Shown here one piece after another: positions 2,207 to 4,546 of a stretch of 34,309 nucleotides of DNA. The notes under the pieces were generated by a model. The model did not search any database. It saw nothing but the letters and a program-made list of their open reading frames with translations, and was not told the origin of the DNA. Location of the stretch: contig DYOU01000014.1 of the NCBI GenBank assembly GCA_020720365.1, positions 1 through 34,309 on the forward strand, written 5' to 3'. A program made the translations under genes and the position numbers. The stretch is from Candidatus Elulimicrobium sp. (lineage in GTDB: Bacteria; Omnitrophota; Gorgyraeia; Zapsychrales; Fredricksoniimonadaceae). Within the stretch, counting starts at the first letter, position 1. Each line of letters opens with the position of its first letter.

Positions 2207-3880
2207 TCACATTTTCTCTGGAGAAGTAATCCCTAGGATGGCAAGGCCATTCGACAAAACAATTCGCGCGGCATCAACAAGAGCTAACCGTTCAGCAGAA
2301 AGCTCCCGATCTTCATCAATAACACGGCACTGGTCATAAAATTTATGAAAAGCCGCTGCCAATTCCTGCATATACCGGGGAAGCGCCGCCGGATCCAGCT
2401 GTCCCGCGCAAAAATCCAGCACGTCCGGAAACTGAAGCAGCTTACTAATAAGATCGATCTCTACCCTTTCCTTTAAACGAACAAAAGGCGCCTCTGAAGG
2501 AACCAATGAGGCGTCTTCTTTTGCTTTCCTCAAAATACTGCACACTCTGGCATGCGCATACTGAATATAAAAGACCGGATTCTCCGGGGCCTGTTTCTTG
2601 GCCAGATCAATATCAAATTCCAATTGTTGATTCACCTGACGCATCAACATAAAATAACGCCCGGCATCCGTTCCTACCTCCTGAACAACTTCTCGCAGGC
2701 TGATAAACTCTCCGGCCCGAGTTGACATCCGAAGCTGTTTTCCTTCACGAAAAATCGTTGCCAATTGAATAATAAGCCCTTCCAATGCTTTGGCATCTTT
2801 CCCCAACGCCTGCGCTGCTGCCTTTATACGAGGGATATAGCCATGATGATCCGGACCAAGAATATCCACCAGAAGGTCAAAGCCGCGATCATATTTGTAC
2901 TTATGATAAACGATATCCGGCGCAAGATAGGTATAGAACCCATCCGACTTCTTGACTACCCGATCCTTATCATCTCCAAACATCGTTGACGCAAACCACA
3001 AGGCGCCGTCCTTTTCATAAATAAAACCTTTGGCTTTTAAATCATTCAGGGTCGCCGCGATATTCTCCGTCGTCGAAATCCTGGACTCAAAGGACCAATT
3101 ATCAAACTTTACCCGAAAAAGACGAAGATCCTCACGGATCACATCCATGAGATAATTCTTTGAAAACTCACAATACTCTTCTAATGAAACAGCATTCGCC
3201 GCATTCAGATCCTCCAGGCCGCGTTCCTTAACAAAGATCCCGGCCATATCACTGATATAAACACCCTGATAACAATCCTCAGGATAAATGATCGTTTCAC
3301 CCAATTGTTCTTTTGTACGTAGCTGAACCGAGAGGCCTAATGTTCTGATCTGATTGCCGCCATCGTTCACATAAAACTCACGCTGGGCATGATGCCCTGT
3401 TGCATTCAACACATTCACCAGAACATCCCCAACAGCCGCCTGACGCGCATGCGCTACCGTTAAAGGACCCGTCGGATTCGCCGAAACGAATTCCACCAGA
3501 ACTTTCTTCCCTTTCCCCAAAGCCGTACGTCCATAAGAGGCCCCCTGTGACAAAACACTTCCAAGCTCATCACAATAAACCTCTGGGGTCAGACGGAAAT
3601 TCAAGAACCCTGGTTTGACGACTTCAACAGAAATGATCTTATCCCGGATCAATGATTGCTGCACCCGGATATTAAACGCACCCCTTATATCTTCCGCTAA
3701 TCCAAAAGGATTACGCCGAAGGCTTTTAGCAAGCAATAAAGCAATATTACACGCCAGATCACCATGCTCTTTTAAAGCCGGCGCTTCCAGCTGCACGTCT
3801 ACCGTTGAGGAATCTCCACCGATATCCCCTGCACTCGAACGGATCAATACCTGAATTTCTTGCTTTAACTGCGGTAACAT
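2207..3880 (-). CDS. argS: Arginyl-tRNA synthetase
   Basis: Class I aminoacyl-tRNA synthetase charging tRNA-Arg. The protein has an N-terminal Add-1-like domain, then the nucleotide-binding core with SANPTGPLTVAHARQ (about 133-147). This occupies the place of the usual PLHIGHxR motif, with the first His replaced by Thr and the Gly by Ala, while the second His is kept. A KMSKS equivalent (LRMSTRAGEF) and a C-terminal DALR anticodon-binding domain follow. The ORF track begins at a GTG (3919) inside rsfS; I prefer the ATG at 3880, 2 nt after the rsfS stop, giving 557 aa and a normal N-terminus. No clear Shine-Dalgarno is present, so coupling to rsfS is likely. Confidence 0.93.
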   Translation of the reverse strand: MLPQLKQEIQVLIRSSAGDIGGDSSTVDVQLEAPALKEHGDLACNIALLLAKSLRRNPFGLAEDIRGAFNIRVQQSLIRDKIISVEVVKPGFLNFRLTPEVYCDELGSVLSQGASYGRTALGKGKKVLVEFVSANPTGPLTVAHARQAAVGDVLVNVLNATGHHAQREFYVNDGGNQIRTLGLSVQLRTKEQLGETIIYPEDCYQGVYISDMAGIFVKERGLEDLNAANAVSLEEYCEFSKNYLMDVIREDLRLFRVKFDNWSFESRISTTENIAATLNDLKAKGFIYEKDGALWFASTMFGDDKDRVVKKSDGFYTYLAPDIVYHKYKYDRGFDLLVDILGPDHHGYIPRIKAAAQALGKDAKALEGLIIQLATIFREGKQLRMSTRAGEFISLREVVQEVGTDAGRYFMLMRQVNQQLEFDIDLAKKQAPENPVFYIQYAHARVCSILRKAKEDASLVPSEAPFVRLKERVEIDLISKLLQFPDVLDFCAGQLDPAALPRYMQELAAAFHKFYDQCRVIDEDRELSAERLALVDAARIVLSNGLAILGITSPEKM

Positions 3881-3884
3881 CGCT

Positions 3885-4319
3885 TTACTTATTATTCCAC
3901 TCAACCTGCTTGGCTTCACACCAAAGATGATCTAAAGCGTAGAATTCACGCGACTCGCCCTCAAATATATGAACAACAACATCGCCCATATCCAGCAGCA
4001 TCCAGGCGCCACTAGCCATGCCAGCATCCCCTGACGGCGAAGGAAAGGCCTGCCCGCCCAAAACAAACCCCTTGGAACGGGAAATACTATCCTCTCCCTG
4101 CTTCATCTTGACCTTGATCCCAAGATCTGCCAGACCATCTTCAACCCCGTCCGCGATAGCTTTCACATGACGAGAAATTGAACCTGAACATATAACAAAA
4201 TAATCACAAAAATTCGCGACTCCGCCCATATCCAAAATAACAACATTTTCTGCTTTCTTATCAAAGGCAAAATTTGCCGCTTTCTTAGCTACTTCTAATG
4301 ACGATAATAAACGTGCGAT
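3885..4319 (-). CDS. rsfS: Ribosomal silencing factor RsfS, probable AUC start
   Basis: RsfS/Iojap protein, which binds bL14 (uL14) on the large subunit and blocks subunit joining when nutrients are scarce. Core motifs FCDYFVICSG, SRHVKAIADGV and the C-terminal DMGDVVVHIF...REFYALDHLW are present. The ORF-track start (TTG, 4235) would delete the first helix and first strand of the family fold. The frame stays open upstream and encodes LEVAKKAANFAFDKKAENVV, as expected for RsfS, until a TGA at 4334-4332. No ATG, GTG or TTG lies in that stretch. The codon ATC at 4319 has GAAAGG 8 nt upstream, so I annotate initiation there (144 aa). A small hairpin (CCAC/GTGG core) followed by TTTTT lies between the upstream ORF and this gene and may attenuate transcription. 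Confidence 0.85.
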   Translation of the reverse strand: MARLLSSLEVAKKAANFAFDKKAENVVILDMGGVANFCDYFVICSGSISRHVKAIADGVEDGLADLGIKVKMKQGEDSISRSKGFVLGGQAFPSPSGDAGMASGAWMLLDMGDVVVHIFEGESREFYALDHLWCEAKQVEWNNK

Positions 4320-4375
4320 AAAAACAACCTTTCAAAAATACGCCCTTCCACAAAAGAGTGGCAGGGGATCCTGAC

Positions 4376-4546
4376 TTATTTCTTCAACTTGGCGGCCTGA
4401 TCCTTACCAAGCACGCGCCAGCATTCATGTTCACCAACAGGAGATTTCACAACGGCGAAAAAACGACCACTCTTTTCTTCAACACGATACGCGGCAGAAT
4501 CAAATTTCTTCTTGGACTTTACATCATAGAATGACAAACTTTCCAT
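4376..4546 (-). CDS. Small basic protein, 56 aa, unknown function
   Basis: A short ORF absent from the ORF track. The translation begins MESLSFYDVKSKKKFDSAAY and ends GKDQAAKLKK. It has a strong Shine-Dalgarno (AAGGAGG) 4 nt before the ATG at 4546; an overlapping ATG at 4550 opens only a short frame. The product is lysine-rich, predicted soluble, with no signal peptide or membrane segment, and has a single Cys next to a Trp (HECWRVLGK). The -YDVKxKKKF- / -GRFFAVVKSP- / -WRVLGK- pattern resembles small conserved hypothetical proteins in my memory, but I cannot name the family. It has its own promoter, and rsfS follows after about 57 nt, so the two are probably cotranscribed. Confidence 0.75.
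   Translation of the reverse strand: MESLSFYDVKSKKKFDSAAYRVEEKSGRFFAVVKSPVGEHECWRVLGKDQAAKLKK

Follow-up and report, generated by a model that had tools for sequence, protein, structure and literature searches.

A probable AUC start codon for the ribosome silencing factor gene rsfS and a recurrent weak-start pattern in Omnitrophota

The window analyzed here is a stretch of 34,309 nucleotides from an Omnitrophota metagenome-assembled genome (1.9 Mb, ca 86% complete, 198 contigs). On its minus strand, rsfS (3885-4319) lies between a gene for a 56-residue protein (4379-4546) and argS (2207-3880). The upstream gene has an ordinary ATG preceded by AAGGAGG. The ATG of argS, at 3880, follows rsfS directly and argS is an ordinary neighbour. 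The rsfS frame reads TGA (4334-4332) AAG GTT GTT TTT ATC (4319-4317) GCA CGT TTA and ends with TAA at 3887-3885. With the ATC decoded as fMet, the product has 144 residues. The TGA closes the frame upstream. From there to a TTG at 4235-4233, which is codon 29 of rsfS, the frame contains no ATG, GTG or TTG. An earlier note on this DNA had described the frame in these terms and had proposed the ATC as start codon because GAAAGG precedes it at a good spacing. Both descriptions are correct: GAAAGG occupies 4333-4328, overlaps the TGA and leaves 8 nucleotides before the ATC. This Shine-Dalgarno (SD) sequence gives the ATC a score of 12, compared with 6 for the TTG, on a simple pairing score made for this analysis and applied with a threshold of 9 or 12. 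The ATC is the sole start-like codon of the open frame that has an SD sequence. Start calls here and below are made from the DNA alone. RNA folding of the rsfS leader in the window showed no remarkable structure (z -1.2).

The product translated from the ATC is a member of the RsfS/Iojap family, well above the curated cut-offs of PF02410 in Pfam (E=2.7e-28, 98.5 bits for a cut-off of 21.6) and of TIGR00090 in NCBIfam (97.9 bits for a cut-off of 56.9). RsfS binds to uL14 and keeps the ribosomal subunits from joining (PMC3400551). Judged from homology, the protein encoded in the window would do the same. In RsfS of this family, an insert of ~22 residues around SISRSKGFVLGGQAFPSPSGDAG (residues ~77-99, window ~4020-4090) separates the two domain halves; the distant RsfS used in the alignment does not have it.

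Translation might instead begin at the TTG at 4235, giving a shorter RsfS. It is the first canonical start, the one gene callers would choose, and the shorter product still matches Pfam. However, this TTG has no SD sequence and lies inside the conserved domain. Starting there removes the first 17 profile positions and lowers the score from 98.5 to 81 bits, in line with the view of the earlier note that the RsfS fold needs residues encoded upstream of the TTG. Alignment with solved RsfS proteins, such as the PDB relative 2o5a, begins at residue 6, and codons 2-24 are under coding constraint. We regard a start at the TTG as very unlikely.

Comparison of four genomes of the same genus (L001-L004) shows where coding begins. 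Upstream of the ATC, the differences at codon positions 1, 2 and 3 amount to 0.47, 0.58 and 0.49, without periodicity. From codon 2 onward they become 0.17, 0.13 and 0.53, which is a coding pattern. GAAAGG and the ATC are kept in all four genomes. The three sister genomes have a standard 16S end with a perfect anti-SD sequence, GGATCACCTCCTTT; no such end was seen in the incomplete genome of the window. Because codon-like substitution begins at the ATC and the SD sequence is retained, the comparison locates the start at the ATC. The same data bear on the possibility that an ordinary start is hidden by an error of sequencing or assembly, such as a base miscall or an indel. The source is indeed a metagenome-assembled genome in 198 contigs. 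However, the same ATC is found in independent assemblies from other studies (L031, L032 and L046), which contradicts such an error. Dozens of relatives also lack a canonical rsfS start, and from the ATC onward the frame is unbroken, with codon-like substitution. Thus, the check for an indel or miscall proposed in the earlier note revealed none when genomes were compared, and the probability of such an error is practically negligible.

Frameshifting or stop readthrough from the upstream gene could also bring ribosomes into rsfS. The 3' end of the 56-residue gene is located about 60 nucleotides ahead of the rsfS start. At 60 loci with forced starts, a possible connecting ORF exists in 8 cases for another frame and in 10 cases for the same frame. 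However, no such ORF exists in the remaining 52 and 50 cases, respectively, the distances vary, and the SD sequence before the isoleucine codon is retained. In the window, some 45 nucleotides separate the TGA from the end of the upstream gene, which is in a different frame. Entry from upstream is thus extremely improbable. The 56-residue protein itself (MESLSFYDVKSKKKF...ECWRVLGKDQAAKLKK), encoded directly upstream of rsfS, has matches at 88 of 188 rsfS loci (E<=1e-3), with an identity of at least 73% in the best 30 of these 88. From these alignments it seems to be better kept than RsfS. It has no match in Pfam or NCBIfam. Taken together, the comparisons give strong support to the proposal of the earlier note, and rsfS in the window very probably starts with the AUC at 4319.

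We then consider rsfS starts in Omnitrophota as a whole. The survey set comprises 165 distinct rsfS loci, identical sequences and frames running off a contig having been removed. A locus was said to have no canonical start when ATG, GTG and TTG were all absent from the in-frame stop to 13 codons before the DKKAED motif. Matches with good scores are favoured in the sample, and one large family (f15) is mostly absent from it. No canonical start was found at 62 of the 165 loci, and an SD sequence accompanies a start-like codon at 60 of these 62; 57 of the 165 are ambiguous under the SD rule. The earlier note had suggested looking for ordinary ATG starts elsewhere in related genomes. They were not found as a pattern, ATG being the best start at only 6 of the 137 loci with a usable SD call. 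In the window's order, ATC, ATT or ATA is found at most callable loci. The forced starts there lie some 20-22 codons ahead of the motif and comprise ATT (7), ATC (5) and ATA (2). Those of sister orders in the class comprise ATA (15), ATC (3), ATT (3) and CTG (1), and almost all of them are placed precisely 16 codons ahead of it. The other Omnitrophota class mainly uses TTG or GTG at the same column. Comparison thus shows a rule for the phylum, with predicted starts at AUC or AUU in the window's order, AUA, AUC or AUU in sister orders and UUG or GUG in the other class. The codon varies within this rule. Some relatives have TTG or GTG, in certain cases TTG with a poor SD sequence (e.g. genus g8), and a few have ATG (L080, L119). 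An approximate RsfS tree of 115 rows implies at least 33 changes of start codon, with ATG in 3 rows only.

The column 16 codons before the motif (column -16) allows a start codon to be told from a conserved internal isoleucine. Behind a strong SD sequence, this column holds ATA, ATC or ATT in 39 rows, TTG, CTG or GTG in 27, ATG in 2, other leucine or valine codons in 4 and anything else in 5. With a weak SD sequence, it holds NTG in 14 rows, other leucine or valine codons in 24, isoleucine codons in 4 and others in 22. NTG and the other leucine or valine codons are distributed differently between strong and weak SD sequences (Fisher p=2e-5), a p-value that describes the contrast and not independent events, the loci being related. 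The adjacent columns are start-like in only ~5-10% of rows. Since the codons found behind a strong SD sequence form the set of near-cognate starts, the column marks a start and not a conserved internal isoleucine. One locus (L130, G295:C1:610244-611534) has ACG behind AGGAGGTC near the start column, with no ATG, GTG or TTG in the open frame, and ACG is a possible start of this gene. In family f55 (genomes of ~0.9-1.3 Mb), rsfS was undetected in all four sampled genomes (G058, G061, G064 and G067); the two of them tested for frr and infC contain both genes.

The pattern reaches beyond what the earlier note had proposed, both across the phylum and, judging from alignments, in Chloroflexota. In eight Chloroflexota loci (L063, L290, L292, L303, L305, L306, L311 and L312), CTG occupies column -16 behind a strong SD sequence without a canonical alternative, and rsfS appears to start at this CTG. 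L313 has ATC at the start column and L310 probably has ATA. In alignments, the UUG annotated as the start of E. coli rsfS falls in column -16. TTG is also found there in Enterobacter, Aeromonas and, by SD sequence, Providencia. In Providencia alcalifaciens (L349:292-303), the annotated GTG of rsfS sits inside the SD sequence AAAGGTGA, the TTG at 301 being the homologous start. The rsfS genes in records of a plasmid collection appear to start with ATG in most Bacillota, Bacteroidota and Neochlamydia, with TTG in Listeria and with GTG in Nonomuraea. A scan of viral contigs for rsfS found none. A weak start in every bacterium was considered and rejected, as B. subtilis, Limosilactobacillus, Paenibacillus, Pseudomonas, Bacteroides, Prevotella and Neochlamydia appear to start rsfS with ATG. 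The alignments therefore point to a weak rsfS start that is common and recurrent without being universal.

Other genes of the phylum were examined in the same way. No locus without a canonical start was observed for frr (0/28, one further locus being masked), smpB (0/30) or raiA/hpf (0/22). A single frr flag was rejected as a run of masked bases, and four rbfA flags were an artefact of an anchor column that coincided with the ATG or immediately preceded it. The contrast between rsfS (62/165) and frr plus smpB (0/58) has a Fisher p of 2.5e-10; relatedness of the loci limits this value in the same manner. A frame that stays open for a few codons without NTG is not rare by chance. However, such frames are shared by the rsfS orthologues of the genus and the order and never by these controls, and this pattern is far beyond chance. 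In the positive control, infC, 15 of 30 loci have no canonical start and the best call is ATC, ATT or ATA in 24 of 30. Of the five other genes tested, only infC behaves like rsfS. As in the infC class, rsfS has no usable ATG, GTG or TTG, carries an AUH codon (AUU, AUC or AUA) at SD spacing and shows this trait with a conservation beyond that of ordinary genes. Two side observations concern the control genes. In the window's genome (G000), smpB is strongly matched on each of two contigs (G000:C118:2292-2717 and G000:C51:1705-2130), reflecting either a second copy or a binning artefact. Also, raiA/hpf was not found in this genome, ca 86% complete, nor in 14 of 37 other genomes. RsfS may be the main known silencing factor of genomes without raiA/hpf.

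The earlier note had drawn a parallel with infC, and the comparison supports it. In the window's genome, infC reads AGGAGGGTTTT ATC CAA AAA CGT, so that infC and rsfS share one start codon. Across genomes, an NTG start of infC combined with an AUH start of rsfS was found in none (one case is ambiguous), whereas both genes have NTG in about 10 genomes and both have AUH in about 9. The genomes with TTG or GTG in infC (family f52 and G073) have TTG or GTG in rsfS too, apart from the ambiguous G072. These alignments are suggestive of start codons that change together in the two genes, a correlation that is confounded by ancestry.

IF3 destabilizes initiation at codons other than AUG, GUG and UUG, and thereby represses infC, as autoregulation, and Streptomyces sigR (PMC5472188). 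This biology makes the control of rsfS by start-codon fidelity, put forward in the earlier note, plausible. By analogy, the AUC codon would keep RsfS output low and dependent on start-codon discrimination by IF3. When free IF3 drops, for instance because it is held by immature 30S subunits, the infC and rsfS mRNAs would both be relieved. IF3 on the 30S and RsfS on the 50S would then rise together and both subunits would be kept apart. In E. coli without RimM, IF3 and RsfS are indeed both up, occupying the two subunits (PMC13246957). In the same study, deletion of rsfS leaves the rimM recovery delay unaltered, which counts against this reading. RsfS may also damp its own synthesis by blocking 50S joining, because weak 30S complexes depend most on the prompt joining that RsfS prevents. 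On this analysis, the arguments for and against IF3-dependent control of rsfS are about evenly balanced, and autocontrol through subunit joining is rather doubtful. A wider picture can be offered only tentatively. rsfS and infC would form a small regulon of start-codon fidelity, in which loss of IF3 raises both and RsfS limits itself by withholding the 50S, the habit being ancient or repeatedly acquired (AUH in Omnitrophota, CUG or AUH in Chloroflexota, UUG in gammaproteobacteria).

A serious rival is that the non-AUG start is real and sets a low, constant level of RsfS, with no special control by IF3 or RsfS. In S. aureus, AUA and AUU starts yield ~10% of the output of AUG (PMC13009471). A single column holds AUH in some rsfS genes and UUG, GUG or CUG in others, so that selection may act on weakness rather than on one codon. 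Moreover, E. coli rsfS, with its UUG, is expressed most in exponential phase (PMC10917681). On the other hand, infC alone among the genes tested shares the habit of rsfS, and the codons of the two genes tend to change together, with the reservation about ancestry given above. We give this plain low-expression role somewhat less than an even chance. The preferred explanation as a whole, an AUC start placed by GAAAGG, a lineage-wide weak-start rule and a low, IF3-dependent output, is likely.

Several known systems can be compared with rsfS. infC and the rsfS of the window both have an isoleucine-codon start with a good SD sequence, kept in relatives, and both encode ribosomal anti-association factors. 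However, RsfS is a 50S-side factor, and IF3 control is established for infC whereas it is inferred for rsfS. The rsfS codon also wanders more than that of infC, between AUH, UUG, GUG, CUG and, rarely, AUG. E. coli rsfS (ybeB) is the same gene with a weak start at the same alignment column, but UUG is a standard start codon. This UUG was noted without comment on its conservation (PMC10917681) and no special status has been proposed for it. The starts of E. coli pcnB (AUU), Streptomyces sigR (GUC) and S. aureus ccpN (AUA) and cvfC1 (AUU) are, like that of rsfS, conserved non-canonical chromosomal starts that limit translation (PMC5472188, PMC13009471). These genes have other functions and their starts are experimentally proven, whereas the rsfS start is read from DNA.

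In the open-access literature, we found no published account of rsfS with an AUU, AUC, AUA or CUG start, or of start codons in Omnitrophota. Few chromosomal genes with conserved AUU, AUC or AUA starts are known. With strong comparative support, rsfS appears to join this small class, in which non-canonical starts are conserved, and the breadth of the trait across the lineage was unexpected. It would be the second translation-factor gene of the class, phylum-wide and echoed in another phylum. If the IF3-dependent reading is true, the level of a 50S silencing factor is tied to start-codon fidelity, and there is a simple cause for the parallel increase of the two factors in E. coli without RimM, IF3 and RsfS. 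A practical consequence concerns annotation: gene callers may misplace the start of rsfS in many genomes, here at codon 29.
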